Assembly: GCF_000002425.4 (NCBI RefSeq)
Contig: NC_037275.1
Location: 8,065,777-8,129,776 of the forward strand
Reading direction: 5' to 3'
Source of the DNA: Physcomitrium patens
Lineage: Eukaryota; Streptophyta; Bryopsida; Funariales; Funariaceae
DNA: 64,000 bases
Shown: positions 1,864-46,584 of the stretch, one piece after another
Position numbering within the stretch: the first letter of the stretch is position 1
Layout: each line of letters starts with the position of its first letter
Translations under genes and position numbers: made by a program
The notes under the pieces: model-generated
What the model saw: only the letters and a program-made list of their open reading frames with translations
What the model was told of the DNA's origin: nothing
Database searches by the model: none

Positions 1864-2401
1864 TGTCACGGACATACATATAATTACCTATATGAATAGA
1901 TAAAAGTATGTAAAAGTAGATAAAAGTAGGTTAATTGTGTAATATCTTCTAGAGAAGCTTCTTAGAAGCTTCATAGATGCTGCTTTGACTTTATAGGAGT
2001 CTATAGTTGACTTTTAGGCTAGAAACTTGGTCAACAAGTTAGCCATGTGCCACACATGTTGGAAGCTTAAAGAACAAGCTAACTACGTGGTCCATCCATA
2101 GAAAACTTGCCTTGCAAGCAAAGGCATGTGGCCTAGAAAGTCAACATATATTGGAGGTCTTATAGAACACCGCCATGTGGCTTCTAGTTAGATAGTATAT
2201 ATAGAGGCAAGAGTGAAGCCCTCTTCACTCTTGTCAACTCCTTTCTTGCTTCTAGTCTAGTTTCAAGGGTCTCTAGTTTTCTTGTATTTTAGCAATAGCC
2301 ATTCCAATTTCTTTCTTAATATACATATTTCTATTTTGTCCTATTTCTTTGAGAAAAGTCTCACTTACTCTTTAGCTTTCATCGAGTTCTTGTCCTTGAC
2401 A
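1864..2401 (+). repeat. G1 5' LTR
   Basis: It runs TGTCACGGAC to CCTTGACA and is matched base for base by 7674-8211 except at five transitions. U3 holds two GAAGCTTC palindromes (1954-1961, 1965-1972) that resemble heat-shock half-sites but are one base out of phase. A TATATATA box is at 2196-2203. The predicted RNA start is 31 nt downstream at 2227. Confidence 0.97.
2196..2237 (+). promoter_or_regulatory. G1 LTR core promoter and predicted RNA 5' end
   Basis: TATATATA is at 2196-2203. ACTCTTGTCAA (2227-2237) starts 31 nt below the first base of the box, where a plant polymerase II transcript should begin. The same 11 bases are exactly complementary to the primer-binding site at 2404-2414. 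An 11-bp perfect inverted repeat (2208-2218 with 2223-2233, loop CCCT) spans the predicted start. The start site is inferred from spacing and complementarity, not measured. Confidence 0.75.
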
Positions 2402-2414
2402 GATTGACAAGAGT
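2402..2414 (+). other. G1 self-complementary primer-binding site
   Basis: Two bases (GA) after the LTR end lies TTGACAAGAGT (2404-2414). It lacks the TGG that marks binding of a tRNA CCA end. It is the exact reverse complement of the predicted first 11 nt of the element RNA (2227-2237), as in self-primed Tf1/sushi-type elements. Confidence 0.8.
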
Positions 2415-2450
2415 ACACTTACAATATGAGAGCTTTGTCTTTTCTTGATT

Positions 2451-2519
2451 AAGAGTGGATTACCCTTTTTTCTTGATAAGACATAAGCGCATTAGAAGTT
2501 GCGGATTACCCTCTTTTAA
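2451..2519 (+). other. G1 leader RNA hairpins with GGATTACC loop
   Basis: Two stem-loops lie in the untranslated leader. The first pairs AAGAG (2451-2455) with CTTTT (2465-2469). The second pairs TTAGAAG (2492-2498) with CTTTTAA (2513-2519) and has TTGCGGATTACC in its loop. G2 has the same pair of hairpins twice with different stems. A role in RNA packaging, dimerisation or translation is inference. Confidence 0.55.
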
Positions 2520-2613
2520 ACTGATATTGTTCTTAGTATTTTCTTTGTTATCAATTCCTCTCTTCTATTTGTTTTGAGCGTTATTAGACATCTTCTCTTT
2601 TCTAAGTGCTACT

Positions 2614-3621
2614 ATGGCAGAGCTTGTTGAAATGAAGAGTGCAATGGCACAGATGCAAGAACAATTGAGGGAGTTAATGCTTGCGATGCATCAACTCAAT
2701 TTACCACCACAAGGAGCAACAAGAATGGTAGGAAGTGAAGATATAGAGATGATTGGGGCTGCTTCAACATCTGCACCAAACCATGTCCCTTCTCCCAGAA
2801 TGGAATACCCTTCGAGTGTTAGAGAACCGAGAGTGGCCTTGCCCGAGAAGTTTGATGGTACCAGATCCAAGTTTCGAGGATTCATCAATTAGGTCCAATT
2901 AGTGATTGAACTTCAACCCCAGAGCTATCCAACTCCAGGGTCACAAGTTAGATTCATTGGTACACTTCTTTCAAGTTCAGCATTGTCATGGTTTTCATCT
3001 TTTCTTGAACGACGAGATCCAATATTGGATAATCTGGAGGCTTTTTTGGCGGAGTTTCGATCCATGTTTGGAGAACATGATGCAATTCGTGTTGCAACCA
3101 ACAAGATCCGTATTTTGCGACAAAGCAATCGATCAGTAACATTATATGCTTCGCAATTTCGACAACTTGCAACTGATATCAAGTGGGATGATGCCGCACT
3201 TGTGAGTCAATTTCTCTACGGATTACAATATGAGGTAAAGAAATTGATGCTTAATTTACCTGATCCTCAAACATTGAGTCAAGCAATTGACTTTGCTGTG
3301 AAGTGCGACAATGGACTTTTTGAATTTCGATCCGAGAGTCGCACAAGTAGGCCTCAACGTTACTACAATTCAATGGCAACACCGACGTCTCCTCAACACA
3401 TACCTTCAGAAGTAGAGGATATGCAAATTGATGCGGTACGTTTTAAACCTCTTACTGAGCAAGAAAAGTCTCGTCGTCGACAAGAAGGATTGTGCTTATA
3501 TTATGGAGAACCTAAGCACACTACTCAACATTGTCCAAAGAAGCGACGTAACTACAAAATGAGGAGTACGGCTGTCAAAGAAGACAGTATGTCGGAAAAC
3601 AAGTACGTCCAGCTACAATAG
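2614..3621 (+). pseudogene. gag: G1 gag (one in-frame stop)
   Basis: Gag forms the virus-like particle and binds element RNA. ATG at 2614 opens an N-terminal region predicted to be helical (MAELVEMKSAMAQMQEQ), about residues 1-30. The retrotransposon gag core follows, with KFDGTRSKFRGF, then SSALSWFSSFLERRD, FLAEFRSMFGEHD and FRQLATDIKWDDAAL. A C-terminal zinc knuckle around residue 295 reads CLYYGEPKHTTQHC. It should be C-x2-C-x4-H-x4-C, so its second Cys has become Tyr. The frame is broken by TAG at 2890-2892, where G2 has Gln, so CAG changed to TAG. The ORF ends at 3619-3621 and overlaps the pol frame, which is open from 3552, by about 70 nt in the -1 frame. The shift site is not clear. 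Confidence 0.9.
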
Positions 3622-6600
3622 GGACCGTGCGGCTGGAATCTTGTATAACTTCTAATGAAGGTCCTATCCTCTCCTCAGAACCATCTCCTTGTTTTATAAT
3701 AGATGTGCGTTTAGGACCTAATAATTACAAAGCCTCTGCCTTGATAGATTCAGGAGCCTCAGCTTGTTTTTTAGATGAAGAATTTCCTAGATGTCATAGA
3801 ATATCATTAATACAAAAAACTAAACCTGTACACGTAGAAGTCATAGATGGTCGTCCGTTGTCTTCGGGAGATGTAACTCACGAAACACTTCCTGTAGATG
3901 TAGTAATAAATGGTCATAGTAGTTGCGTAATTTTTAATATAATTAGATCTCCCTCTAATCCAGTAATTTTAGGCTTATCATGGTTAGAAAAGTATAATCC
4001 TCGAATAGATTGGATTTCTCGTAAACTTGATTTTCCTCAGAGCATTAGTAACAGTTCTATTAATCAAGTAAAAAACCATGAGTCTAGTATAGTAAAACTC
4101 GCACTTATAGGTGCAAAAGCATTTATACACGCAGCAAAAGAAGGATCAACTTTTGCTATTTATGCTGCACCTATTTCTGAAAGCGTAAAGACTTCAAGTG
4201 GCATTCCAAGTCAATATCAGGATTATCAAGACGTTTTTGAGAAAAAGAATGCAGATATTCTTTCTGAGCATCGCCCATACGATTGTTCAATCGATCTCAA
4301 GGAAGGAACTCAGCCACCATTTGGACCAATTTACAGTTTATCGCAAGATGAGTTGGCTGAACTCAAGACATATATTGACGAGAATTTAGCGAAGAATTTC
4401 ATACGCCATTCAAAATCTCCAGCAGGAGCTCCAATTTTATTCGTAAAGAAAAAAGATGGATCTTTACGAATGTGTGTTGACTATCGAGGACTCAACAAGA
4501 TCACAATCAAGAACAGGTATCCATTACCTTTGATATCAGGACTCCTTGACCAGTTAAATCAAGCTAAGATCTATACAAAAATAGATCTAAGAGGAGCATA
4601 TAATCTAGTACGGATCAAAGAAGGAGATGAATGGAAGACTGCGTTTCGAACCAGGTACGGGCATTTTGAATATAATGTCATGCCTTTTGGACTCACGAAT
4701 GCACCAGCTGCTTTTCAACATCTCATGAATGATGTATTTCGTGAATTCTTAGACAATTTTGTCGTCTGCTACCTAGACGATATCCTGATTTATTCTAAGA
4801 ATGTTGAAGAACATGAAATACATGTTCGTCAAGTATTACAAAAACTTAGAGATGCAGGATTGTACGCCAAGATAGAAAAGTGTGTATTTCACACTACTCA
4901 AGTTGATTTTTTAGGATACATCATTTCAAATGATGGTCTTATGATGGATTCTAAGAAAGTCCAAACAATCATGGATTGGAAGATTCCAAAGACTGTAAGA
5001 GATGTCCAATGTTTCTTGGGATTTGCCAATTACTATCGGATCTTCATCAAAGACTTCTCACGAGTTGCAGCTCCACTTACACGCTTGACTAGTAAAGATA
5101 AATTCCAATGGAATCAAGAAGCGGAAGCAGCATTTGAAGCCTTGAAGACATCGTTTGTCTCTGCACCAGTCTTATATCGTGTTGACTTTTCCAAGGTATT
5201 TTTTATGGAAACAGACGCATCGGATTTTGCCTTGGGTGCAGTTTTATCACAAATGGGAACAGATGACAAACTTCATCCGATAGCTTTTCATTCAAGAAAA
5301 TTCTCAGCAGCCGAGATCAATTATGAGATCCACGATAAAGAACTTCTTGCAATCGTGGATTCTTTTCAAGAATGGCGTCATTATCTAGAAGGTGCTTCTA
5401 GTCCAGTCACTGTGTATACAGATCACAAGAACCTCGAGTATTTCATGTCAGCACGCGTGTTGAATCGTCATCAAGCTCGTTGGAGTATGTCTTTGTCAAG
5501 ATTCGACTTCATTATCACTTATCGGCCAGGAAAATAACAAGGTTTGTCCGATGCTCTATCTAGACGTTCTTATTTTGCACCAAAAGAAGGAGATGCAGCT
5601 TTTGAGCAACAAAGAACGGTCCTCTTGAAACCGGAGCAATTTCATCTCCGAGCAGTGAAATCAACACTGACTGTTGATTCAACTTTTCTCAAGCAAATCC
5701 AGTCCAGTATGTCCTCAGACCCTCTTGTTCATGATATCGAGAATAATTCTTCCAAGTCTCATGATTCTTCTAAGTTCGAGTTCAAGAATAATCTATTATA
5801 TTTTGAAGGACGCCTATATGTTCCAGAAGGAAAAGCACGTTTGCGTGTTCTTCAAGCACGTCATGACTTTCCAGCAGCAGGGCACTTTGGATATAATAAG
5901 ACTCTGGAACTCATATCAAGAGATTTTTGGTGGCCACAAATGTGGAAGTCAGTCAAAGACTTTGTACAATCATGTGATATTTGTTCAAGATCAAAAATTC
6001 CTCGACATCAACCTTACGGACTTCTTCAGCCATTACCTATACCAGAACAACCATGGTCTTCTGTTTCTATGGATTTCATCACAGATCTTCCAAACTCAAG
6101 ATCTTATGATTCTATATTTGTGATAGTAGATCGTTTCACCAAGATGGCACATTTTATGCCATGTACAAAATCTATCACAGGTGAAGAAACAGCTAAGCTT
6201 TTCATTGATAATATCTATCGCTATCATGGATTACCTAAAGATATCATATCGGATAGGGGAACTCAATTTGTGTCGAGATTCTGGAGGACTCTTTTCAAGA
6301 TTTTAAAAGTGGACATAAAGCTATCTTCAGCTTTCCATCCTCAAACTGATGGACAAACAGAGCGCGTAAACCAAGTCTTGGAACAGTATTTAAGGTGTAC
6401 CATCAACTACCAACAAGATGATTGGACAAACCTTCTGCCATTGGCAGAGTTTGCTTATAATAATACGGTACATTCCTCCACGCAACAAACACCTTTCTTT
6501 GCCAATTATGGCTATCATCCACGACTTGATACTTTTGATTTTTCAAAAGTTGATAATCCTGCAGCAGAAGATATGGCAAATCGGTTGTCAGAGTTACATG

Positions 6601-7115
6601 CAATAATGAAGGCGCAGTTGAAGAAAGCTCAAGAACGACAAAAGATAAATGCAGATGTATATCGTAAAGAGCAACCACAACTCAACGTGGGTGATAAGGT
6701 ATGGCTACTTCGTCGCAATATCAAGACCACTCGACCTTGTGACAAATTGGACTATCGTAGGCTTGGCCCCTTTTCTGTTTCTGAACAGATCAACCCAATT
6801 GCATATCGGTTACATCTACCGGAGTCAATGAAGATCCATCCTGTATTCCACGTGTCTCTTCTTGAACCATATAAGACAGTGGATATACAAGGAAGAAGAC
6901 AAATGCCACCGCCTCCTATAGAAGTAGATAATAATGAAGAATTTGAGGTGGAAGAGATATTAGACTCAAGGCGGCGCCGAAATACGCTGGAATATCTTGT
7001 TCATTGGCGCGGATATGATATTAGTGAGCGCACATGGGAGCCATCCAGGAATCTAGCAAATGCATCAGCTAAAGTCAAAGTTTTTCATCAACGACATCCA
7101 TCAAAACCAAGATGA
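3552..7115 (+). pseudogene. pol: G1 pol: protease, RT, RNase H, integrase, chromodomain (one in-frame stop)
   Basis: This is the replication polyprotein, in the -1 frame relative to gag. The aspartic protease has ALIDSGASACFL. RT has [19 protein letters not shown], then MPFGLTNAPAAFQH, and the catalytic YLDDILIYS (about 4770). RNase H has ETDASDFALGAVLSQ and TDHKNLEYF. A stop TAA at 5535-5537 replaces Gln (G2 has CAG-coded Gln here). After it the same frame continues to 7115. Integrase has the His/Cys zinc finger (5866-5990, CDICSRSK), a DDE triad in MDFITDLP, ISDRGTQF and GQTERVNQ, and a GPF motif (about 6765). It ends in a chromodomain with EVEEILDSRRRR and YLVHWRGYDISERTWEPS (6944-7110), which probably steers integration to marked chromatin. 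Confidence 0.95.
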
Positions 7116-7209
7116 AAACCTCTCTTATGAAAGAGACAAGATTGAGGCAAGATAACATTCAATTTCCTATCCTTGTTTGTAGCTTCTTTGTATTTGTGAC
7201 GCTAATTAG

Positions 7210-7632
7210 ATGGAGAGCCAACAACCAGCGGATTCAACTCAAGAACCTTCATTTGCTGACTTACCGGATGAGACATTGCGATGGTCACAACCTTCAAGAC
7301 GACGCAACCGAGATGAAGACCCTCAAGAACGACATGTTCTTCCTCAAATAGATGGTGAGATACAACGCATTTGGTATCACGACCTTGGAAGAGATTCTCG
7401 ATGTTTGGTGATATTATTGGAGATAGGAACGACTCCTGATGGTGTTTCAAATGTATTATTTGAAAGAAGTTATGAAGGCCTCAACAGTGATCAAATAACA
7501 GGGTGGTCTTCTCGCCCTGGAATGGGACACTATCGATGGCTAAGAGGACCCATCAACTATCTTCGAAGAGAACAAAGATCAGAGTATGTAGCAAATACAA
7601 TTCGCCGCATATTAGATTTTCTCAATATATAA
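7210..7632 (+). CDS. G1 ORF3: conserved small accessory protein, function unknown
   Basis: This intact 140-residue ORF lies between pol and the 3' LTR, in a different frame from pol and 95 nt after its stop. It is hydrophilic, with no signal peptide or membrane segment. An Arg-rich patch near residues 37-47 (SRRRNRDEDPQ) is followed by a hydrophobic strand (CLVILLEIG) and a C-terminal block GHYRWLRGPINYLRREQ and RRILDFL. G2 has the same ORF in the same place (43256-43585), with GHYRWLQGSMNHLPREQ and a matching LVIVFEI stretch. Conservation between two diverged families argues for selection. I do not recognise the family. Its position suggests an env-like slot, but it has no envelope features. 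Confidence 0.75.
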   Translation: MESQQPADSTQEPSFADLPDETLRWSQPSRRRNRDEDPQERHVLPQIDGEIQRIWYHDLGRDSRCLVILLEIGTTPDGVSNVLFERSYEGLNSDQITGWSSRPGMGHYRWLRGPINYLRREQRSEYVANTIRRILDFLNI

Positions 7633-7659
7633 TCACCGCTCCTCGTGGAACTCGTCCCT

Positions 7660-7673
7660 AGAAGGGGGGGTAA
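7660..7673 (+). other. G1 polypurine tract
   Basis: AGAAGGGGGGG (7660-7670) followed by TAA leads into the 3' LTR and would prime plus-strand DNA. G2 has the same plan: a G run, then TGA, then the LTR. The three-base spacer is shared by both. Confidence 0.85.
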
Positions 7674-8211
7674 TGTCACGGACATACATATAATTACCTA
7701 TATGAATAGATAAAAGTATGTAAAAGTAGATAAAAGTAGGTTAATTGTGTAATATCTTCTAGAGAAGCTTCTTAAAAGCTTCATAGACGCTGCTTTGACT
7801 TTATAGGAGTCTATAGTTGACTTTTAGGCTAGAAACTTGGTCAACAAGTTAGCCATGTGCCACACATGTTGGAAGCTTAAAGAACAAGCTAACTACGTGG
7901 TCCATCCATAGAAAACTTACCTTGCAAGCAAAGGCATGTGGCCTAGAAAGTCAACATATATTGGAGGTCTTATAGAACATCGCCATGTGGCTTCTAGTTA
8001 GATAGTATATATAGAGGCAAGAGTGAAGCCCTCTTCACTCTTGTCAACTCCTTTCTTGCTTCTAGTCTAGTTTCAAGGGTCTCTAGTTTTCTTGTATTTT
8101 GGCAATAGCCATTCCAATTTCTTTCTTAATATACATATTTCTATTTTGTCCTATTTCTTTGAGAAAAGTCTCACTTACTCTTTAGCTTTCATCGAGTTCT
8201 TGTCCTTGACA
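7674..8211 (+). repeat. G1 3' LTR
   Basis: This is the second 538-bp LTR. It differs from the first by five transitions and no indels. Its TATATATA box is at 8006-8013 and the primer-like sequence at 8037-8047. Confidence 0.97.
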
Positions 8212-8216
8212 TATTG
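8212..8216. repeat. Right target-site duplication of G1 (TATTG)
   Basis: This is an exact copy of 1859-1863. Element A's integrase frame resumes directly after it. Confidence 0.95.
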
Positions 8217-9005
8217 ATAGCAACGGATTACATAACAAAATGGGCTGAAGCTATAGCTATAAAAACTGATAGTGCAAGTACAGTAGCAACCTTTTTGTAT
8301 GAAAATATTATTATATGGTTCGGTTGTCCACGAGAATTGGTTAGTGATCAAAGAACTCATTTCATAAATAATACAATCGAAGCACTCACGCCTAAATATG
8401 AGATAAAACATTGAAAGACTGTACCATTTCACCCTAGAATCAATGGACAAATGGAAAAGACTAATAGAATTTTATGTAAAATCTTAACAAAAATAGTTTC
8501 AAGAGTGGGAGCAGATTGGGACACTAAGTTGTTTGCAGCTTTATGGGCATACCGTACTGCATATAAAGCTATTACCAATGCTACCCCTTTCCAATTGGTG
8601 TATGGCCAAGAAACAATATTACCTATTGAATTGGAAGTCCAAAGTTTACGAATTGCTATAGATACTAGATTGGGAGATCAGGATACATTACGAAACCATT
8701 TAGAAGAATTGGAAAAATTAGATGAAACTAAAGTCAATACATTAATAATAATGGAAACTACCCAAAAACAGAGGAAGACTTATTATGATAGTAAGCTTAG
8801 ACTAAAGGCTTTTATGCGAAATGATTTGGTACTTATTCATGATAGTCGATTTAAAAAATTTCCACGAAAATTTCAAGTTCGATGGCATGGACCATATCAA
8901 GTTATTGAAGGATTTTCAAATAGTTCAGTACAATTGGAAGATTTCATGGATACAAAATTTACTATACGGATTAATAATAATCGGCTTAAACTTTACTATC
9001 CATAA
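8217..9005 (+). pseudogene. Element A integrase, catalytic core and C-terminal part
   Basis: The frame continues from 1863 with IATDYITKWAEAIAIKTD. The second Asp of the DDE triad is in LVSDQRTHF, and the Glu in INGQMEKTN. TGA at 8412-8414 breaks the frame at KH-stop-KT, within the core. From 8415 to the stop at 9003-9005 the frame is clean: WAYRTAYKAITNATPFQLVYGQ, then the basic KWRKTYYDSKLR-like segment, and FQVRWHGPYQVIE, the GPY motif. No chromodomain follows. This is the best-preserved part of element A. Confidence 0.9.
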
Positions 9006-18534: not shown

Positions 18535-21500
18535 GGTGGATTAAAAGTTGCCGGCCGGTCAACTTGTGGAATATCCCATCTCTGATCAACTTCCCTTTAT
18601 TACAAGGGATAAGGGTGTGTTTCAACTCAATCCCCAAATAAAGTTTCGCATCTTTTAAGTCAGTCATCTTGAAGGTGCTCATTAATTTATCCTTAAATTG
18701 TTGAATGTAAAATATATCATCTTCTATCACAATCATATTATCCACATAAAATAATACTATTATATATTTTTTATTTTTAATTATGGAATACATATTGAAA
18801 TCTTCATTGCTTTTTTGAAGTTTTTAATTGCAAAGGAAGGAGTCTAATTATCTATAACATGCTTTGGTGGCTTAACTAAGGCCATATAATGCTTGTTCTA
18901 ATTTACAATTTTTTCTTTGCTTCCTTTCTATTTGAAATCTAGTGGTAGTATCATATAGATATCTTCATTTAGTACATTGTTAAGAAAGACTATTTGTTTG
19001 TTTAAGTGTTGTATTTTCTAATTTTTCATTGGTGCCAAAGAAATTATTCTTTTGAATGTTGACTACCTAATTATAAGTGCAATTTTTTTGAAGAAGTATA
19101 TTTCTTCTTCTTGCTCATATTCTTAAGCTACCATTCTAGTCTTTAATTTTTCAGATTTGCTACTAGGACCTAATTTGGTTTTGAAGATCTACTTTGACAA
19201 TATTTGGGCCTTTCATTCAAGTAAATCAACTAGAATTCAAGTGTTGTTTTATAATATTGATTCAACTTCTTATTTGATTGCTTCTTACCATCCAATATGT
19301 TGCATAGCTTCTTTGTAGTTTTTGGATTTAATATTATTTTTTAGTGCAAATATATAACTATTCTTAAATTTAAAGTTTATTTTATTTTTTTTATTTTGAA
19401 TTGGATATATTTTCTAACCTCCTTGTTTTATGGTTTTTTAGTGAAGAACTTATATAAGTACACCATCCAAAGCCAGATCAATTAGATTGCTTATTGATAT
19501 TGAAGGGATATTTGCGCTCTCTTCTTTGTCTAATGAGTTATATTCAATCATGAGATTTTGTTTTTTTTCTTACTAAATTATAGTAATACTTGTATCTTTA
19601 AGTAAAAGATCATCATATGGAAACAAGTCTATTTTGTCTTCTAGGATTGTATTAGACTTGATATAATATATAGAGTCAAATATCCTATGGACTTTTGTTT
19701 GATTATCATACTATAGGAATGAATACTTAATGATTTTTCTTTCTAATTTTGATCTATTTTCTTTTGATATATGTAGGTATACTACGGATCTAAATATCTT
19801 CAAGTAATCTAAAGATAATTTAGTCCTATTATATAGTTTTTTTGAAGTAATCTTTCAATTAGCTCTAATAGAATTAATGTTAACCAAGTAGTTAATACAA
19901 TATATGGCTTCAAATCATAAGTAGATACATAATTGGCACACAATTGATATCAAGCATGTATTTTTTACTATAGTTTAATTGTACTTTTTGCTAATTCTAT
20001 TTTATTGTAAGATATGTGCCATTATAAGTTGTTAACTTATCCTAGGGAGGATCAAGAAGTTATTAAATACTTGAGTTAAGTATTCATCTCCTCTGTTTGT
20101 CTTTAAGCGCATGATTTTTTTTATTTTTTTTTTATTTTTTTTATAGTATGAATTTGCATTTAAATTCTTAGAATTTTCTAAAGATTTTGTGTTTATTATG
20201 TAAAAATAGATCTAATTAATATAAGAATACTACAAAGTATTTAGAGCCTTCTAAGAATAGAGTTTTTATTGAGCCAACTAGATCAAAGTATACAACTTGT
20301 AGTACTTTTTTTGCATGATGAATTGAATTTTTTAGAAATTTTACTCAATCATATCACTCCACCATAAAATTTTTAAATGTTACTCAAGGAGTGCTAAATA
20401 GTTGCAATTCTTATATCCAATGGACTTTTGATAGATATTGTAGTCTAATATAGTGTAAGTATTAAAACCTTCTATAGCATAACCATGTTTCTTTTTCTAT
20501 ATTTATTATATTTGCTTCAATTAATTTTGATTCTATTTCTTTCTTATGAAATTGATAAAGTCCATACTATTTATTTCTTATTCCTATGACTATTAACATT
20601 TCATTGTGTTCCTTGTCTAGTATTAGACATTATTTGTTTGTGAATACAATTAACTTGCTATTGTCTCTCAATAAGTGTATTAAGATCATGATGTAATTTA
20701 AGACATAAACATACAAAATATTGTGAATTTTTACTGCACCATATCTTGTAGACATAGTGGAGATATAAGTGGCTTTAATCCTATGGAGTTTAATGTCTAC
20801 AAGTTTTATTGCCCTATTCAAAGTTTGTATATCTATCAATAAGAGGTTTGATATCTCTCTAGTGAAATGATTACTTATTCATGAATCAACATACTTGTTT
20901 CTACTATGGTAGTCAACAAGATTTGCCTTGCTTGTATTATCATTGTATTCACTATAAGTATTCTCTTCTATATAGTTGATATTGAAGTTGTAATATGGAT
21001 TATGTATGCAATTTTGAGCAATGTGATTTAGTCCTCTACATGCATAATATTGAAATAAATGCACGTTTTTGTGGTTTTAAAATCTAGGTGCAGATAGTTG
21101 CGAGGCTGCTCTAACAAATATTGACAGTCCTCTTGATCTATTTTGAAGTTGATTGAACAAGTGAGGTCTTCATCATCCAAGATGTTGTGGGATTCTTTAA
21201 GTTAAGTTTCTTCTTCTTCTATCTCTTTGTATAAATTAGATTTGTATATATCTTCTAAGAGGAGTGTACTAAAAATATAGAAATAATGCTTCTTCTTGTC
21301 TCAATTTTTGTTCTTTGACTACTATACAATGATTTAAATGAAGATCTTATCCATTATATCTTCAAATGTTGCTTCTGTCATATAAATCATGCTTTAGATT
21401 GCCATTTTGTAGCTTTGTAGCTATCTATTGAGGATAATAATTATAAGTATCCAATTTGCAATGACTTTGTAAATTACTTTTAGATAATTTTTTAGGTCTA

Positions 21501-36582: not shown

Positions 36583-37914
36583 TTATGTATTATATAATCG
36601 TAATCGGTCTTCGTTTATGCGGGTACTGAAGTGATGGCTCATGAAATCCTCAAATTAAACAGATCCATTGGAAAAACTTTCAATCATCTGATACGGCCTA
36701 TGCCAACGAACTTGAAATTTTTTCGAAAAATGATTAAACCGGCTATCATACAGTAATACCAAATCATTGGGCATAAAATTCTTCGGACGCAGTTTACTAT
36801 CATAATAACTCTTCTTCCATTTTTGAGTTGCTTCCATGTTAAAAAGAACTATAGCCCATATTTCATCCAATTCCTCCAATTTTGCCAACTGAGAGTGTAA
36901 CGATTTGTTGTCACTGAGACGTTCATCCAAGGCAATCTGTAAACTTTGAACCTCCAACTCGATGGATAAAATTGCCTCTTGACCATAAACTAGTTGAAAT
37001 GGAGTAGAGTTGGTAGTTAATTTATATGCGGTGTGATATGCCCACAAAGCCGCAAAGAGTTTGGTTTCTCAATCGGTACCCGCCCCCAAAATTGTCTTAG
37101 TTAAGACCTTGTACAAAATTTTGTTGGTCTTTTTCGTTTATCCATTAGTACGAGGATGATATGGAGTGGTTTTTTGATGCTTAATGTCATATGTGTTTGT
37201 CAAGGCAACTATGGTAGCATTTAAGAAATGTGTGCCGCGATCGCTAACTAATTCCTTCAGACACCCAAATCAAGTTATAATATTCTCGTATAGAAAAGTA
37301 GCTACCGTATTGACATTATTATGGCGGGTAGCAATAGCCTTTGCCCATTTTGTTACATAGTCCATGGCGACTAAAATATATCACTTCTGGCTAGATTTTG
37401 ATGCTGATGCGATGGGACCGATAAAATCAATATCCCATTTTTTGAACAATGCTTGTGCCAAGATTGGAACTAATAGTATGGCAGAAGTATCTGTGGGTCG
37501 ACCAATTCATTGACAAGGATCACAACGACGAACAAATTGGTGTGCATAAGAAAACATTGTGGGCCACCAATATCCAGCCAATAAAGTCTTGCGAGCAGTA
37601 CTATCTTCCGTAAAATGACCACCACAAGTATCCAAATGGCAACCTTCGAGGATCGAATGTACTTCACTTGAAAAGATACAGTAACGTAAAATACCATCTT
37701 TACCTTGTTTATATAAAGTATTGCGAATCATTGTATACAGGGCACTCTTAAGAATGAATCGCTTCTTAAGCTTCTCGGTGAAAGTCGGTGGAAAGGTATG
37801 GAAGGTCAAAAACTGAATGATTTCACTATACTCGAGAAAAATTATATCCACCACAAATAATTTGGCATCAAAAAGAGCATCTGGGATAGGCTCGTTTTTG
37901 AGAATATTAGACAA
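36583..37914 (-). pseudogene. Element C integrase
   Basis: It continues the frame cut by G2. LSNILKNEPIPDALFDAKLF links RNase H to integrase. Then come the zinc finger (GCHLDTCGGHF, RRCDPCQ), the catalytic core, WAYHTAYKLTTNSTPFQLVYGQ, a basic KWKKSYYDSKLRPKNF segment and the GPY-like HRPYQMIESF, ending at 36583. Stops in the middle (37050-37500) break it. The spacer 36257-36582 between integrase and ORF3 is untranslated. Confidence 0.85.
37910..37914. repeat. Target-site duplication of G2 (GACAA), left copy
   Basis: GACAA recurs at 44052-44056, directly after the right LTR. C's frame rejoins between HANVDHLSR and LSNILK when one copy and G2 are removed. Confidence 0.93.
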
Positions 37915-37929
37915 TGTTAGGGACATATT

Positions 37930-38156
37930 CCTTAGAACTTTCTAGAGAGAAGTTTCTAGAACCTTCTAGAAAACAAGCCTCTGGAACCTTCTAGAAGAGA
38001 AGCCTCTGGAACCTTTTAGAGAGAAGTTTCTAGAAGCTTCTAGAAAGGAAGTCTCTGGAACCTTCTAGAAGAGAAGTTTCTAGAAGCTTCTAGAAAGGAA
38101 ACCTCTGGAACTTTCTAGAAGCTTCCTAGTTAATAGAAGTAGCTTGAGAAGCTTCC
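37930..38156 (+). promoter_or_regulatory. Heat-shock-element array in G2 U3
   Basis: Perfect TTCnnGAAnnTTCnnGAA blocks lie at 37954-37971, 38028-38045 and 38078-38095. A GAAnnTTCnnGAAnnTTC block lies at 38108-38125, and GAAnnTTCnnGAA trimers at 37984-37996 and 38058-38070. This is the consensus for heat-shock factor binding. The array lies upstream of the TATA box and recurs in the 3' LTR (about 43651-43877). Confidence 0.8.
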
Positions 38157-38166
38157 TAAGTAGGAG

Positions 38167-38209
38167 TATATATAGGGATCGAGGCTAAAGAGTTCTTCAG
38201 TCTCGACAA
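38167..38209 (+). promoter_or_regulatory. G2 core promoter and predicted RNA 5' end
   Basis: TATATATA is at 38167-38174. CAGTCTCGACAA (38198-38209) lies 31 nt below it and is the exact complement of the primer site at 38337-38348. An imperfect inverted repeat (38179-38191 with 38194-38206) spans the region, as in G1. In the 3' LTR the arm matches perfectly apart from one G-T pair. Confidence 0.75.
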
Positions 38210-38334
38210 TACATCTCTTGGAGTTCTAGCTCACCTTTCTAGTGTTGTTCTTGTACTCATCTATTTAATCTAGTTCTGCCACTTCTTCTTGAACTTCTTG
38301 TTAGTTTTCAAGTCTGTATTTTGTGTCCGTGATA

Positions 38335-38348
38335 GTTTGTCGAGACTG
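38335..38348 (+). other. G2 self-complementary primer-binding site
   Basis: After a two-base spacer (GT) comes TTGTCGAGACTG (38337-38348). It matches no tRNA CCA end and is complementary to 38198-38209 over 12 bases. Spacing from LTR end and from TATA box is the same as in G1. Confidence 0.8.
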
Positions 38349-38385
38349 CACTAACTTGAGATATCAGAGCTAGTTCTTTCTTAGT

Positions 38386-38570
38386 AGAGTGTGGATTATC
38401 CCTCTTCTTGAAGGTATACTAGCATTTTTAGAGGTTGCGGATTACCTTTCTCTAAATTGATACTTCTTTTGTTATAATATTGGAGTCTTATTCTTCTTGG
38501 AGAGAGTGAATTATCCCTCTTCTTGAAATTCTTAAGGCGTTTTATAGGTTGTGGATTACCCTCCTATAAA
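38386..38570 (+). other. G2 leader: duplicated pair of GGATTACC hairpins
   Basis: Four stem-loops: AGAG/CTCT at 38386-38405, TTTAGAG/CTCTAAA at 38427-38456, AGAG/CTCT at 38503-38520 and TTTATAGG/CCTATAAA at 38541-38570. Loops carry GGATTATCC, GCGGATTACC, GAATTATCC and GTGGATTACC. The unit is doubled relative to G1, and paired bases change together. Confidence 0.55.
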
Positions 38571-38613
38571 CCAATATTGCCTCTTATAGGATCATTTTTG
38601 TCCTTTTTTTAGA

Positions 38614-39573
38614 ATGGCCGGAGGTCAAGACATTAGTATGACAGAAAGTTCGGAGTCTAAGTTAGATGCTATTATGAATGCCCTCGCTACGTTATCACAA
38701 AGAACTACAGAGATTGAAGGAGTGGTGGCAAGGCTTCATAATGATGGAGTATCTGGGATAGCACAATCTAAACTACACCAGCCTCAAACTTCGGCACTTA
38801 GAGAAACAACTTTACCTCAGGTTCGACAAGAACCACTAGTTCTACAACATAAGGAGCCTCAAGTTAGCCTTCCAAATAAGTTTGATGGAACACGTTCGAA
38901 GTTTCGAGGATTCGTCAATCAAATCAGGTTGATAACAGTTTTACAGCCCGAACGATATCCAACGGAGGAGTCACGTGTTGGGCTTGTTGGAACCTTACTT
39001 ACGGGACAAGCTCTATCATGGTTTGCTCCTTTGTTTGAGAAACGATCATCCATATTAAACAACTTCGAAACCTTTTTGGAAGCATTTGCGGAAGCATTTG
39101 GTGAACACGATAAGATTCGATGGGCTACAACAAAGATCCGGTCGCTACGACAAGGGATGCATTCTACATCAGTCTATGCTTCGGATTTCAGGCAATTAGT
39201 ATGCGACATCAATTGGGATGAAGAAGCGTTGATGAGTCAATTCTATTGGGGTTTAAGAGATGATGTGAAGGATTTGCTGTTAACTCTTCCTGATCCACGA
39301 ACGCTCAATGAAGCCATTAGCCAAGCTGTGAAGTGCGATAATCGCCTATTCCAACGTCGCCAAGACCAACGCTCAAGACAACATACAATTCGCCATGCTC
39401 CAACTATGTTGGCAAGCGGTGTGAATTCGCATTTAGAGGTGGAAGACATGCAAATTGATGCGGTACGTATCAAATCTCTTACTACAGAAGAAAAAAAGCG
39501 ATGTATGGAGGAAAATTTATGCTTGTATTGCGGTGGAGAAGGCCACAAAGTTGGAAACTGCCCCAAAAAGTAA
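38614..39573 (+). CDS. gag: G2 gag, intact ORF
   Basis: This 319-residue ORF from ATG has no break. A helical N-terminus (SKLDAIMNALATLSQRTTEIEG, here described by its ends) precedes the gag core: KFDGTRSKFRGFVNQ, GQALSWFAPLFEKRS, FAEAFGEHDKIRW and FRQLVCDINWDEEALMSQFYWG. The zinc knuckle at about residue 303 reads CLYCGGEGHKVGNC, complete C-x2-C-x4-H-x4-C, unlike G1. The ORF ends right after KVGNCPKK. Pol lies in the -1 frame, as in G1. Confidence 0.9.
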   Translation: MAGGQDISMTESSESKLDAIMNALATLSQRTTEIEGVVARLHNDGVSGIAQSKLHQPQTSALRETTLPQVRQEPLVLQHKEPQVSLPNKFDGTRSKFRGFVNQIRLITVLQPERYPTEESRVGLVGTLLTGQALSWFAPLFEKRSSILNNFETFLEAFAEAFGEHDKIRWATTKIRSLRQGMHSTSVYASDFRQLVCDINWDEEALMSQFYWGLRDDVKDLLLTLPDPRTLNEAISQAVKCDNRLFQRRQDQRSRQHTIRHAPTMLASGVNSHLEVEDMQIDAVRIKSLTTEEKKRCMEENLCLYCGGEGHKVGNCPKK

Positions 39574-39596
39574 AATCGAGGCATAGTCAAGACTAG

Positions 39597-42500
39597 GGGA
39601 GTATTTCTTCAGGGAAACGAGGATGCCCAGCCAAAGTAGGAACCGTGCGGCTGGACAATGAAATATTCCAACAACAATCAGGTTCCTTTCTTTCTATCCA
39701 ACCTGCACTTTGTTTTACAATCCCTTTGTTTATCGGCCCTCAAAAACTGAGAACCTTAGCACTACTAGACTCAAGAGCATCTGCTTGTTTTTTAGACGAA
39801 GAATTTGCAAAGCGTCATAAGATCCCTTTAGTACAAAAATCAAAACCTGTTCATGTTGAGGTCATAGATGGGCGACTTTTATTGTCTGGTAGCATCACCC
39901 ATGAATCAAAACCTATAGAAGTAACGTTTAAAGACCATAGTAGTCATATTATTTTTAATATTATTAGAACTCCATCAAATCCTATTATTCTTGGTCTTTC
40001 TTGGTTGGAAAAACATAATCTATTGATAGATTGGAGGTTGCGGAAGATGACTTTTCCTACAAAACCACCCAAGAAAAAACCTAGTAAAAAACCTCGAAAA
40101 AAGAAATCCTTATTCATTGGAGCAAGAGCATTTATAAGATCATCTAAGGAAGGCACTCCATTTGTCATTTATACGGCTCTAACTACCGAGGAGAAGATCT
40201 CAACAACAAGTATACCGGAGCAATATAAAGATTTTGAAGACGTGTTTCAAAAGAAGAGCGCTGACATACTACTGAAACACCGACCATATGATTGTGCCAT
40301 AGACTTGCAAGAAGGAGCACAACCACCTTTTGGCCCAATCTACAATCTATCGCAAACGGAATTGGCAGAGTTGTGAAAGTACATCGATGAGAATCTAGCC
40401 AAGAACTTCATTTGTCATTCAAAATCATCAGCTGGAGCACCCATCTTATTTGTGAAGAAAAAAGATGGATCATTACGGATGTGTGTGGACTATCGAGGCC
40501 TCAACAAAGTAACAAAGAAAAATCATTACCCATTACCCTTGATTTCTAGTCTCTTAGAACAACTTGGACGTGCGAAGATCTTTACAAAAATTGATCTAAG
40601 GGGAGCTTATAATCTCGTATGAATCAAGGAAGGAGATGAGTGGAAGACAGCATTCCGTACAAGGTATGGTCATTTCGAATATAATGTCATGCCTTTTGGT
40701 CTTACCAATGCTCCGGTGGTTTTCCAACATATGATGAATGACATCTTTCAAGAACACCTCGACGATTTTGTTGTCATCTACTTGGACGAGATTCTAATAT
40801 TCTCTAAAAACGAGGAAGAGCATGAGGAGAATGTTCGTTTGGTCTTGGAGAAACTACACAAGCGAGGTCTATATGCCAAATTAGAAAAGTGTTTATTTCA
40901 CCAGACGGAGATGGAATTTTTGGCGTTCATTGCGACTACAGAAGGTTTGAAGATGGACCCCAAGAAAGTAGAAGCAATCATGTCTTGGGAGGTTCCGAAG
41001 ACGGTTAGAGATGTACAATGCTTTCTTGGTTTTGCTAACTTCTATCGGATCTTCATCAAGAATTATTCTCAAGTTGCCGCTCCTCTCACTTGATTAACAT
41101 GCAAGGATAAGTTGGAATGGGGACCTTTGGCGGAGAAGGCGTTTCAAGATTTGAAGACAGCATTTACTACAGCTCCAATTTTGGTACATCCAGACTTTAC
41201 AAAGGCCTTCTATTTAGAAACTAATGCTTCAGATTTTGCTTTGGGAGCTGTGCTTTCACAAATGAGTGAAGATAAGAAGCTCCATCCAGTTGCATTCTAT
41301 TCTCAGAAATTCTCTGCTGCTGAAATCAATTATGAGATCCACGATAAGGAACTTCTTGCTATAGTGGATTCTTTCGAAGAATGGCATCACTTTCTTGAAG
41401 GAGCTACATATCCAGTAACCGTATATAAGGATCACAAGAATTTGGAGTATTTCATGACGGCTCGAGTTTTAAATCGGCATCAAGCTTGGTGGAATATGTC
41501 GCTATCTAGATTCGATTTTGTTATCACTTACAGACCTGGAAGGCAGCAAGGACTATCCAATGCTTTATCAAGGAGATCGTATTTTGCACCAAAGGCTGGA
41601 GAAGTTGCGTTTGATCAACAATGTACAACGTTATTGAAGCCAGAGAGATTTCAACTTTGTGCTACTATTGTATCATTTGATGCTGACTTCCTAAACCAGG
41701 TACGTGCTATGACCATTAAAGATTCAGTAGCCATTGATATCAAGCAACGTATCAATGACGACAAGTTCAAGGCGGAGGGAGATCTTTTATACTTTGAAGA
41801 GCGATTGTACATTCCTAAAGGACCAGTACGACTCCGAGTTCTTCAATCTTGCCATGATTTTCCAGCTGCGGGACATTTTGGATTCAACAAGACCTTGCAG
41901 CTTATTTCTCGAGATTTTTGGTGGCCCCAAATGTAGAAGGATGTCAAAGATTTTGTCCTCACTTGTGACATTTGTTCAAGATCTAAAAATCCTCGGCATC
42001 GCCTTTATGGACTTCTACAGCCATTGCCAATTCCACGTCGACCATGGTCTTCAATTTCTATGGACTTCATCACGGACTTGCCATCATCAAACTCATTTGA
42101 CAGCATCTTTGTCGTGGTAGATCGGCTTACGAAGATGACACACTTTGTTTCTTGTAAGAAGACATCGTCCAGTGAAGTCACAGCAAGACTCTTTCTCGAT
42201 AATGTGTATCGATATCATGGACTACCAGATGACATCATATCAGATCGAGGTACCCAGTTTGTGTCAAAGTTTTGGAGATCTCTCTTTCGGATATTGAAGG
42301 TGGATATCAAGCTTTCTTCAGCTTTTCATCCTCAAACTGATGGCCAAACGGAACGAGTGAACCAAGTCTTGGAGCAGTACTCACGATGCAGCATCAACTA
42401 TCAGCAAGACGATTGGACTGCATATCTACTGCTAGCCGAGTTTGCATATAACAACACCCTCCATGCGTCGACTCAACAAACACCATTCTTTTCCAACTAT

Positions 42501-43118
42501 GGGTATCTTTCGAAGCTTGATTTATTGAGTCCGTCAACAAATAACAATCCAGCAGCTAAAGGATTTGCGAAGCAACTATCAGAGCTTCAAACTATGTTGA
42601 AGCTTCAATTACAATCTGGTCAAGAATCCTATAAGACGTCTGCAGATAGATTTCGGAATCAAGCACCTACTTTCAAAGTTGGAGACAAAGCCTGGCTTCT
42701 TCGACGAAATATCAAGACCAAGCGACCATGAGATAAGTTGGACTATCGAAGATTGGGACCATTTATCATCCAGAAGCAAATTAATCCAGTGGCATACCGG
42801 CTGGAGTTACCGGCTTCTATGAAGGTACATCCAGTCTTTCATGTTTCTCTGTTGGAACCTTATCGAGAGTCATCTTTTTCTGAAAGAGTGCAATGTCCGC
42901 CACCTAGTATTGAAATCGAGAACCACAAAGAATACGAGGTTGAAAAGATATTGGATTCACGGCGAAGGTGGAGAAAGTTAGAATATCTTGTTCATTGGTG
43001 TGGCTATGACATTAATGAGCGAACGTGGGAGCCAGCTGAAAATCTTGCAAATGTGCCACAAAAGGTACAGGAGTTTCATCAACGACATCGTGATAAACCT
43101 AAATCAATTCAACGATAG
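39597..43118 (+). pseudogene. pol: G2 pol: protease to chromodomain, six stops and three lost active sites
   Basis: One frame runs from 39597 to 43118, just after TAG at 39594-39596. Protease reads LLDSRASACFL, so the catalytic DSG has become DSR. RT has [19 protein letters not shown] and MPFGLTNAPVVFQH, but its box is YLDEILIFS where the second Asp is Glu. RNase H reads ETNASDFALGAVLSQ, so its first Asp is Asn. Integrase keeps CDICSRSK, MDFITDLP, ISDRGTQF, GQTERVNQ and a GPF motif. The chromodomain is EVEKILDSRRR, YLVHWCGYDINERTWEPA (42935-43060), with WRG changed to WCG. Stops at 40374, 40619, 41090, 41934 and 42729 fit CGA to TGA or TGG to TAG. No indels are evident. Confidence 0.93.
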
Positions 43119-43255
43119 CTTCTTTCTAAAGCTTGTTCTCCCAATAATATAACAAAAGGGGAGAGCACCATCAAAATTTGTAGTTGATGTAGTTATTTTC
43201 TCCGAGATAGATCGTAGTTTGGTCTTTTGATATAGATAGCCAAGAGATAGATACT

Positions 43256-43585
43256 ATGCCAGTCAGAGTATCGCAACCGAGTAGCTCACGAAGGCGACCC
43301 CGAGATGAAGAACTACATGTACCATGACGACGACGGAGGATACCGAGTAACCGATCACTGGTGATCGTATTTGAGATCGAGCCTGCTTACGATGGTCAGC
43401 TAGAAGGCGTGTTCGCAGGACAATTTCACAATGAGGACACAGAAGTTCATGCTTGGTCAGAAGTCGAAGGCGTGGGCCACTACCGTTGGCTTCAAGGGTC
43501 GATGAACCACTTGCCTCGTGAACAACAGTTGGAGTTCATAGCAGAAGTTATGCGACAGATCTTCATTTTTTTGCGTTGGTACTGA
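43256..43585 (+). pseudogene. G2 ORF3: counterpart of G1's accessory ORF, one stop
   Basis: ATG at 43256 is followed by an Arg-rich SSSRRRPRDEE, a TGA at 43325-43327 (fits CGA to TGA), then SLVIVFEIEP, a variable middle and GHYRWLQGSMNHLPREQ with a hydrophobic end. Order and key residues match the G1 ORF at 7210-7632: Arg patch, short hydrophobic strand, G-H-Y-R-W-L, R-E-Q. About 110 codons against 140. Not recognised as any known family. Confidence 0.7.
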
Positions 43586-43618
43586 TCAACAACATTGCTT
43601 CTCAGAGACTTCGAAGCT

Positions 43619-43635
43619 AAAGGGGGGGGGGGTGA
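43619..43635 (+). other. G2 polypurine tract
   Basis: AA and A with eleven G (43619-43632), then TGA, then the LTR. The same arrangement is in G1. Confidence 0.85.
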
Positions 43636-44051
43636 TGTTAGGGACATATTCCTTAGAACTTTCTAGAGAGAAGTTTCTAGAACCTTCTAAAAAATAAGCC
43701 TCTAGAACCTTCTAGAAGAGAAGCCTCTGGAACCTTTTAGAGAGAAGTTTCTAGAAGCTTCTAGAAAGGAAGTCTCTGGAACCTTCTAGAAGAGAAGTTT
43801 CTAGAAGCTTCTAGAAAGGAAACCTCTGGAACTTTCTAGAAGCTTCCTAGTTAATAGAAGTAGCTCGAGAAGCTTCCTAAGTAGGACTATATATAGGGAT
43901 CGAGGCTGAAGAGTTCTTCAGTCTCGACAACACATCTCTTGGAGCTCTAGCTCACCTCTCTGGTGTTGTTCTCATCTGATTAATCTAGTTCTTGCCAGTT
44001 CTTCTTGAACTTCTTATTAGATCTCGAGTCTGTATTTCTATGTCCGTGATA
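43636..44051 (+). repeat. G2 3' LTR
   Basis: 416 bp. The heat-shock array is retained, the TATATATA box is at 43888-43895 and the primer-like 12-mer at 43919-43930 (31 nt apart). Differences from the 5' LTR are mostly transitions plus a small indel cluster near 43970-44000. Confidence 0.95.
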
Positions 44052-46584
44052 GACAATCGGGATAAATGATCAACATTGGCATGTTTCTTTTCAAGTCATA
44101 CGACAATCGTAAAATTGAACTCTTGTAAGAGTAAGATCCATCAGGCAATGCACCCACTCAATTGAGGCTTATTAATCATGTATTTGAGACATCATGATCG
44201 ACATAAAAAATAAATGGATACCTAAGAAAATAGTGCCGAAATTTTTGAACCGAGTATATCATACCTAACGCTTCTCGTTCAGTAGTTGTGTAATTGTGTT
44301 CGGCAGCCACCAATTATCGACTGGCATAATAGATAGGATGATCTAGATCCTTATCATCCTTCAGACTTAACACTGATCCAATAGCCACATTAGATGCATC
44401 AACGTACATATGAAAGGGCTCCATCCAACGAGGAGCCACTAATATTGGTGGAAAGATCAATTTTGACTTCAATGCTTCAAAGGCCACGATACACTCTATG
44501 GTCCATATGGGACTAGTCCTATCTGATGAAGGTTTCTTTAGTAAGTTTGTTAAATATTGACAAATAATTTCAAACGAACGAATGAATCTTTTTTAATAAT
44601 TGACATGGCCCACAAACCCACGAACATCGGAGACCATCTCTGGACGGGGCAAGTTCATTATATGGTGCACTTTGTCAAGATCTGTAGCAATACCATAGCT
44701 AGAGATGATATGTCTTAATAATTTACTATAAAAAATATCAAATTGATATTTCTTCGAGTTCAACGATATTCCAAACTTAACGCACCAAGCCAAACATTTG
44801 CCCAAATAATTAAGATTATCTTATTTTGTACTGAATGCATAAAAATCATCTAAAAAGATTTCCATAAATAGTCGGAGATAGTCTTGGAAGGCCTGAGTCA
44901 TCACTCTCTGAAACATGGCTAGGGCGTTTCATAATCCAAAAGGCATCATGCGATAAATTAATGTCCTCCAATCCATAATAAAGGTCGTCTTAAGTTGGTC
45001 TTCCGTTACAATTTAAACTTGATTATATCCAAAAAATCCATCGAGGAATGAATGACATTTGTGACCGGCTATGGTGTCCAATATACTATCTATGAAAGGC
45101 AATGAAAAGTAATCCTTTATGGCGGTTGCATTAATTTTCCAAAAATCTTGATAAATTTGGATTTTTCCATTCTTTTTCAGCACCATGACGATTGGAGAAA
45201 CTCACTCGCTATTCGGCACTGGGAAAATGAAACCAACCGCAAGAAGCTTGTCTAATTCCTCTTTCACTATGAAGAAAAATTTAAGATTAAGGCGATGTTA
45301 CCTTTGCCATATCGGTTTAGCGTTCTCCTCTAAAATGATATGATGCTCACAGACGTCAGCAAGAATATCCTTTAAATCAACATAAGTCCAAGAAAAAGCG
45401 GACTTATGATGTAAAAAAAATTCTATCCAATAGGTCAACTCTTAGTCCTTAATACCTTCATAGATCTTAATTATCTGTGGCTCTGCTATGGTCGCCAAGT
45501 TAATAGTTTGACATAAAGGTACAACGACGATGTTCTATTTCAAGCCCCGCGTTGGTTGAAAAGCAGTCAGTAAGTTTGACATGTACGAAGTACTAAATCT
45601 TGTGTCCATGGTACTAACGTGGTATACATCATATTTAGTCATCCAATCAATACTTACATATCCAAAGTTTTCTGAATCTGTCGAGTATATCAAGTAGTCC
45701 CCCAGACCTCCACATTGATATACCACTCCAAGGTGTTGCGTTGCTTCCACGGATGCCTCCGTAAACGGTGCGACTGCATCATCATCAAAGTTAAGCTCAT
45801 CGTCCGATGTCAATTCAGATACTAGCAATTGAAACTCCCCGTAATAGCGTATTGGGTATATTTATAATACTATTTTGTCACCGCCCTTGCCAATTGTCAA
45901 AGTATCTCGACCCGAATTATTTTTCACCTTCGCTTGATAATGTCAGGGTTGTCCCAATAAAATTAGATATGATAAAGTCAAATGTTGTAGCTGAAAGATG
46001 ATATAGTCAATTGCATATGTAATATCAGCAATTATAGTTTGAACACTTCGTAAAATATCCATTGCTTTAACCCGACTATGATCTGCCATCCGTAATACCA
46101 ATGTCGTGGGTACTAAGTGTTCCAAATCTAAAGCATCCATTGTATCAGTGTTCATTAAATTGACACTAGAACCACCATCCACTTGAACACCCGAGATCAT
46201 GACACCGTCAATCGAAACATCGATGGTTGGTGCACCTGGGTCACGGTTCAAACTGACTTTTCAAACTTTCTTATTACGTTGCATATGCCGTATTAACAAT
46301 GAATTTAATGTAGAACGGCACTCTCGTGTAACTGCTAGAAGTTGCTTCATAGAAATAAAAGGCCGAATAGTATCCAGATCCTTCAATATGTCATAGGATT
46401 CCATATTTAAGGTAATGCCCAATGTCCACTTTCTTTTCATTGCTTGGAGTTTAACTCCTTGAGGTAAGATATTCTTCCACCCTGGACTCAAAATTGGAAC
46501 AGCAGATAGAGCTTCTTTGGAATTCAAGCCTACTAGAGGATCTTTCAACGAACAAGACATTTTTCAGAACGGCATCGAGAACGG
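44052..46584 (-). pseudogene. Element C protease, RT and RNase H
   Basis: On the minus strand from 46584: the gag-protease linker (LKDPLVGLNSKEA), protease with GVQVDGGSSVNLMNTD and RMADHSRVKAMDILRSVQT, a spacer with MDTRFSTSYMSNLL, then RT and RNase H (CLAWCVKFGISLNSKKYQFD, VRGFVGHVNY). RNase H ends HANVDHLSR at 44057, where G2 is inserted. RT between 45540 and 44810 is broken by several stops. A net 1-nt shift occurs between 44805 and 44083. All of it matches B's 26740-29280. Confidence 0.85.

Follow-up and report, generated by a model that had tools for sequence, protein, structure and literature searches.

Two chromodomain retrotransposon families of the moss Physcomitrium patens very probably prime reverse transcription with the first 11 nucleotides of their own RNA

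The window, by which we mean the whole 64,000-nucleotide stretch of Physcomitrium patens DNA analyzed here (contig NC_037275.1), contains two LTR retrotransposons of different families, G1 and G2 (Table 1). G1 is a 6.3-kb element (positions 1864 to 8211) with two 538-bp LTRs. Its gag frame is interrupted upstream of position 2902, and the C terminus of its integrase is a chromodomain (PF00385, 56.2 bits, residues 467 to 517 of a 523-aa ORF). G1 seems to have inserted within another retroelement: in the stretch from 8212 to 9005, beyond its 3′ LTR, there is an integrase-like ORF, read by eye at positions 8451 to 9005. One and the same frame relation (−1) links the gag and pol ORFs of G1 (2902/3627), of G2 (38614/39645), and of a relative that is encoded on L001 (471/1478), a 3.8-kb contig listed in an assembly named as a cyanobacterium, and is 72% identical to G1 pol. 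This suggests that pol may be expressed by frameshifting. Both families in the window also have an extra small ORF between the chromodomain and the polypurine tract (7210 to 7632 and 43361 to 43585), which encodes 140 aa in G1 and is a 74-aa open piece in G2. The two products are 38% identical over 72 aa, and neither has a Pfam match at an E value of 0.1.

Table 1. Features of the G1 and G2 elements, in window coordinates
Feature	Position	Strand	Remarks
G1 5′ LTR (TGTCAC...TTGACA)	1864..2401	+	target site duplication TATTG just before, 1859-1863
TATA box, G1 5′ LTR, TATATATA	2196..2203	+	
U3 “decoy PBS” arm of G1 U3/R hairpin	2206..2218	+	pairs with 2223-2235
3′ arm of G1 U3/R hairpin	2223..2235	+	predicted RNA start A2227
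G1 predicted self-primer ACTCTTGTCAA	2227..2237	+	first 11 nt of predicted RNA
G1 PBS TTGACAAGAGT	2404..2414	+	after 2-nt gap (GA)
Leader hairpin with GGATTACCC in loop	2491..2520	+	
G1 gag, open part	2902..3621	+	PF03732, PF19259
G1 protease, RT, RNase H	3627..5537	+	
G1 integrase with chromodomain	5544..7115	+	PF00665, PF24626, PF00385
Putative polypurine tract adjoining G1 3′ LTR	7660..7670	+	read by eye
G1 3′ LTR	7674..8211	+	then target site duplication TATTG, 8212-8216
U3/R hairpin and primer copy inside G1 3′ LTR	8016-8045; 8037-8047	+	
G2 element	37915-44051	+	target site duplication GACAA, 37910-37914 and 44052-44056
G2 5′ LTR	37915..38334	+	
TATA box, G2 5′ LTR, TATATATA	38167..38174	+	32 nt before primer
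G2 U3/R hairpin, 5′ LTR copy	38178..38207	+	11/13 pairs
G2 predicted self-primer AGTCTCGACAA	38199..38209	+	
G2 PBS TTGTCGAGACT	38337..38347	+	after 2-nt gap (GT)
G2 3′ LTR	43636..44051	+	hairpin 43899-43928 (12/13 pairs), primer copy 43920-43930

The leader between the PBS and gag (window positions 2415 to 2613 and 38348 to 38613; L001 positions 293 to 470) holds hairpins with GGATTACCC in the loop, and in the G2 leader this hairpin unit is doubled. A comparison of 11 sequences shows one 8-bp helix of the leader in which both partners of two pairs have changed; paired cells make up 94.3% of this helix, compared with 33 to 58% in slid controls, and two of five shuffle measures were not exceeded. 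An Rfam scan of the window returned no family at threshold. We regard the hairpin as a candidate packaging or dimerization signal.

G1 and G2 best fit the Tf1/sushi type of Ty3/gypsy elements with a chromodomain, and among plant elements they are Tcn1-like. G1 combines three features of that type: its reverse transcriptase groups accordingly, its chromodomain is C-terminal, and its PBS, which has no TGG, is complementary to the 11 nt at the predicted RNA start. The reverse transcriptase of G1 is 65 to 67% identical to those of two fungal elements, 57 to 59% to those of four vertebrate elements, and 50 to 51% to those of seven angiosperm elements. In a tree of 22 rows, G1, L001, and environmental, fungal, and vertebrate rows are separated from the angiosperm and Closterium rows (support 100/99). 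Two distant outgroups were dropped from this tree, one of which had fallen inside the group by a long branch in an earlier tree, and the seed-plant side consists of seven rows of one plant family, which we take to be Asteraceae, together with the alga Closterium. The tree shows no indication of a separate origin of self-priming in G1, which groups with fungal and vertebrate elements.

Two bases past the end of its 5′ LTR, G1 carries the 11-mer TTGACAAGAGT, which is the perfect reverse complement of ACTCTTGTCAA within the same LTR. The latter begins 31 nt after the first T of the box TATATATA, and there is no TGG within positions 2402 to 2420, the 19 nt past the LTR. The exact match, its distance from the TATA box, and the lack of TGG had been noted in the preliminary description of the locus, which had also placed primer, TATA box, and PBS correctly. 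The base that follows the PBS is A in the G1 of the window, as it is in 25 of 28 copies of G1 and 37 of 40 copies of G2 from the same genome, with G in the remainder (3/28 and 3/40). Given that this A is unable to pair with the C at −1, pairing mostly stops at 11 nt. In the G2 of the window and in L001 the base is G, and the complement can there reach 12 nt instead of 11.

G2 repeats this layout, with a TATA spacing of 32 nt against 31 nt, a 2-nt gap between LTR and PBS, and a CA start (A after C). The primers of the two families differ at positions +2, +6, and +8, and the PBS has changed to match at all three. Outside this region the LTRs have diverged: their raw identity in a global alignment is 52%, and the longest local match is a stretch of 54 nt (72% identical) running from the TATA box to just past the primer, all others being shorter. 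The covariation is between two independent families only, with L001, which has a G2-type primer/PBS match 32 nt after its TATA box, counted as G2-type.

Matches of this length are rare by chance. A complement of at least 11 nt was found anywhere in the G1 LTR for 26 of 20,000 Markov-random 15-mers and anywhere in the G2 LTR for 15 of 20,000; this test ignores position, and the location of the actual matches 31 and 32 nt after the TATA box adds to the argument against chance. When the window was scanned for 11-mers lying 26 to 38 nt after a TATA box with a complement 90 to 700 nt downstream, the + strand yielded three sites (G1, G2, and a further one that starts the count at 21245) and the − strand yielded no site; three control relations gave 0, 0, and 1 sites on the + strand and 1, 2, and 2 on the − strand. 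The same TATA-anchored scan in 20 genome stretches of 10 kb yielded 217 matches versus 163, 186, and 127 for the controls. These matches are mostly AT-rich repeats, because of which the larger scan does not discriminate. The scan alone proves little, and the case for self-priming is carried by the second family and by the copies. As a negative control, we examined 133 viral stretches carrying one of the 15-mers: a PBS complement 60 to 700 nt downstream was present in 0 of the 133, and a 9-nt decoy arm (described below) in none. A protein search of viral contigs returned no relatives.

A search for the G1 LTR-PBS stretch in the genome of the window (470.4 Mb, 101 contigs) returned 2598 first-look candidates, the best 40 of which were scored. 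Among the 28 G1 copies read, which are part of the 40 long matches listed and include the window's own, the primer is intact in 28, the PBS in 27, and both are exact in 27. These copies are about 99% identical to one another and hence not independent; they show upkeep of the pairing rather than independent events. For G2, 40 upstream stretches were taken from the top and bottom of the 125 gag matches listed, and the primer is exact in 34, the PBS in 36, and both in 30. None of the 10 mismatched G2 copies is compensated, and no compensatory change was seen within either family. The covariation that the preliminary description had proposed to look for among family members is thus found between the families, where 3/3 differences are compensated, and not within them.

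Twenty 10-kb stretches of the genome, sampled at fixed positions, added four more exact primer/PBS pairs, of which L050 holds three and L052 one. An LTR-PBS pair could be read in 11 elements, and in four it is mismatched (L054, L048, L039, and L045). L045 (− strand, about 4970 to 5200) has a G1-like LTR and hairpin, yet the sequence after the LTR pairs with the primer at only 6 of 11 positions; its gag is 34% identical to that of G1. This mismatch represents either decay or a different priming arrangement. Chromovirus contigs are also placed in assemblies with bacterial names (L001 to L006; cyanobacterium, Neobacillus, Shewanella, and others), and they are probably contamination. In the assembly of L001, the only relatives were on the same contig; L002 to L006 were checked for an LTR pair, and the short repeats in L003 and L006 were not accepted as one.

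In the fission yeast Schizosaccharomyces pombe, the first 11 bases of Tf1 RNA are complementary to the PBS, and the RNA is cut between bases 11 and 12, as described in the available text of PMC7175516. We consider it very probable that G1 and G2 likewise start reverse transcription without a tRNA, by means of the first 11 nt of their own RNA. The RNA of G1 would start at A2227, as the TATA spacing and the CA context suggest, and its first 11 nt would fold back onto the PBS, be cut off after nucleotide 11 as in Tf1, and, once freed, be extended by reverse transcriptase. The exact complement, its location at the expected start, the change compensated between families, and the grouping of the reverse transcriptases are direct observations. 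This reading, which the preliminary description proposed for G1, is strengthened by two diverged families with three compensated differences, a shared layout, and the reverse transcriptase grouping. The 11-bp helix between primer and PBS is present in both the minimum free energy and the centroid folds of the G1 and G2 leaders, while neither complete leader folds more stably than shuffled sequences (z = −0.81 and −0.93). The leaders of G1, G2, and L001 were searched for the “pretzel” side helices of Tf1, which were not consistently found: the fraction of 500 shuffles with an upstream/downstream helix as good was 0.07/0.16 for G1, 1.0/0.03 for G2, and 0.88/0.60 for L001, the last with the LTR end and PBS entered one base off.

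Two other explanations of the complement have to be weighed against self-priming, and each has only a very slim chance of being correct. A host tRNA, or an internal fragment of one, could prime at the PBS, with the match in the LTR being incidental; priming by half-tRNAs has been reported from certain copia lineages of plants (PMC6317226). With no TGG in positions 2402 to 2420, the CCA 3′ end of a tRNA finds no partner, and tRNA priming does not predict that two families would each match their LTR at the expected RNA start, with all three primer differences compensated in the PBS. On these two grounds, the lack of TGG and the covariation of primer and PBS, tRNA priming was rejected, judging from the element sequence alone. 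Alternatively, the complement could serve RNA circularization, translation control, or packaging, given that the primer sequence is also present in the 3′ LTR, where the PBS can pair with it in a long-range helix that could do such work. However, the complement lies two bases past the LTR, in the usual location of the primer site of LTR elements, and no other candidate was seen there in G1. Moreover, the primer copy in the 3′ LTR is enclosed in a hairpin, and its calculated binding to the PBS is weaker.

This hairpin spans the junction of U3 and R. A second complement of primer nucleotides 1 to 9 (1 to 8 in most G2 copies) sits in U3 just upstream of the primer, and the resulting stem has 12 to 13 bp and a 4-nt loop, with four pairs preceding the predicted RNA start, which occupies position five of the 3′ arm. 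With G-U pairs counted, the stem has 13 pairs in 8 of 15 LTR copies, 12 in 3, and 11 in 4. All 28 fetched G1 copies have 13 pairs, and the 40 fetched G2 copies have 13 (3 copies), 12 (31 copies), 11 (4 copies), 10 (1 copy), or 9 (1 copy). Between the families the decoy arm tracks the primer at +2, +6, and +8, the last being a G-U pair in the G1 of the window, and the loop is variable (CCCT, GCTT, CCTT, AGTT, GGTT, and GATT). In a scan of 36-nt hairpins at every third position, the G1 and G2 hairpins surpass all others on the + strand of the window (−19.9, −19.7, and −18.9 kcal/mol), and on the − strand 2 of 21,322 windows reach −18.9 kcal/mol or below. The hairpin copy in the G2 5′ LTR is weaker and carries a change that L086 shares. 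When hairpins just downstream of 1173 TATA sites, drawn from the window and the 20 stretches, were ranked by strength, the top eight all belonged to G1- or G2-type LTRs. For pairing of the PBS with the RNA 5′ end, the computed energy is −16.1 kcal/mol in G1, −14.9 in G2, and −13.6 in L001, compared with −8.2, −0.8, and −3.5 kcal/mol, respectively, for the primer copy that has the U3 arm, with the only LTR of L001 standing in for its 3′ copy.

The potential of the U3/R hairpin to pair is thus observed. Correctly started transcripts contain U3 at their 3′ end alone, and it otherwise occurs just in read-through transcripts, so that the hairpin could conceal the primer copy at the 3′ end. We therefore propose, as a tentative hypothesis for which we claim somewhat less than an even chance, that the arm at the end of U3 is a decoy PBS that covaries with the primer, and that the hairpin hides every copy of the primer except the one at an authentic RNA 5′ end. 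A rival to masking, although not to self-priming, is that the hairpin is a dyad acting in the DNA, for example, a binding site of the promoter or initiator, and not an RNA mask. Its location between the TATA box and the start fits this role, as does the 54-nt TATA-to-primer stretch, which exceeds in length every other match of the two LTRs. A binding site, however, should keep its letters, whereas the arms covary at three positions and the loop varies, and we consider the DNA-level role unlikely, if still a serious contender. A start of the RNA upstream of the decoy arm, which would put the hairpin at the RNA 5′ end and require the primer to be made by processing, is far less credible, with a probability barely above negligible. 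The calculated stability of the hairpin (−19.7 kcal/mol) would be compatible with it, but such a start would lie about 10 nt from the TATA box, and the PBS complement ends at A2227 in most copies read. An A that follows a C and lies 31 nt from the TATA box is a usual transcription start site.

Self-priming in a moss element is well supported by these data and is a known kind of mechanism that had already been predicted. According to the available text of Neumann et al. 2019 (PMC6317226), self-priming is predicted for the majority of Tcn1-clade elements, in moss and club-moss species, by the rule that a run of 10 bp or more complementary to the LTR begins 0 to 5 bp after it, and no other plant chromovirus group self-primes. 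G1 and G2 fit this REXdb rule for the Tcn1 clade, with no mechanistic difference seen in the text consulted. The suggestion in the preliminary description that a plant chromovirus primes itself is accordingly upheld as to mechanism, while the idea is not new for plants. Like Tf1, as far as the accessible parts of PMC7175516 and PMC10085805 describe it, G1 and G2 have a PBS that matches the predicted first 11 nt of their RNA, a chromodomain integrase, and probably no tRNA primer; they differ from it in the inconsistent “pretzel” side helices, in a comparison made by description. A P. patens element appears in the chromovirus figure of a 2023 paper, the consulted portion of which reports the group from non-seed plants (PMC10085805). 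SM-Tcn1 of Selaginella moellendorffii is, like G1, a Tcn1-type element of a non-seed plant, but unlike our result for G1, the sections of Novikova et al. 2010 available to us (PMC2864245) report evidence of neither tRNA priming nor self-priming for it. G1 resembles RLG1, described in part of PMC7466625 as the most abundant P. patens element with a chromodomain integrase, in having such an integrase and many copies, a likeness judged from descriptions; RLG1 is also reported there to be expressed in protonema. Plant elements of the TAR lineage (Houba and Osr-1) are, like G1, predicted to self-prime, in the same available text of PMC6317226; TAR is a Ty1/copia lineage, whereas G1 is Ty3/gypsy. 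The portions of the Tf1 descriptions examined make no mention of a decoy hairpin in U3, and none was found in the literature searched, although it may be in print.

In the parts of the literature searched, tRNA-free priming in plants is a prediction only. The compensated changes of two families, together with L001 from another source, provide comparative evidence for it in a land-plant element. If the hairpin does act as a mask, it would solve a problem built into self-priming, namely, that R contains the primer, so that the RNA has it twice, and it would further serve to verify that the RNA had started correctly. The covarying hairpin makes testable the general question of how the 3′ copy of the primer is kept from competing with the 5′ copy.
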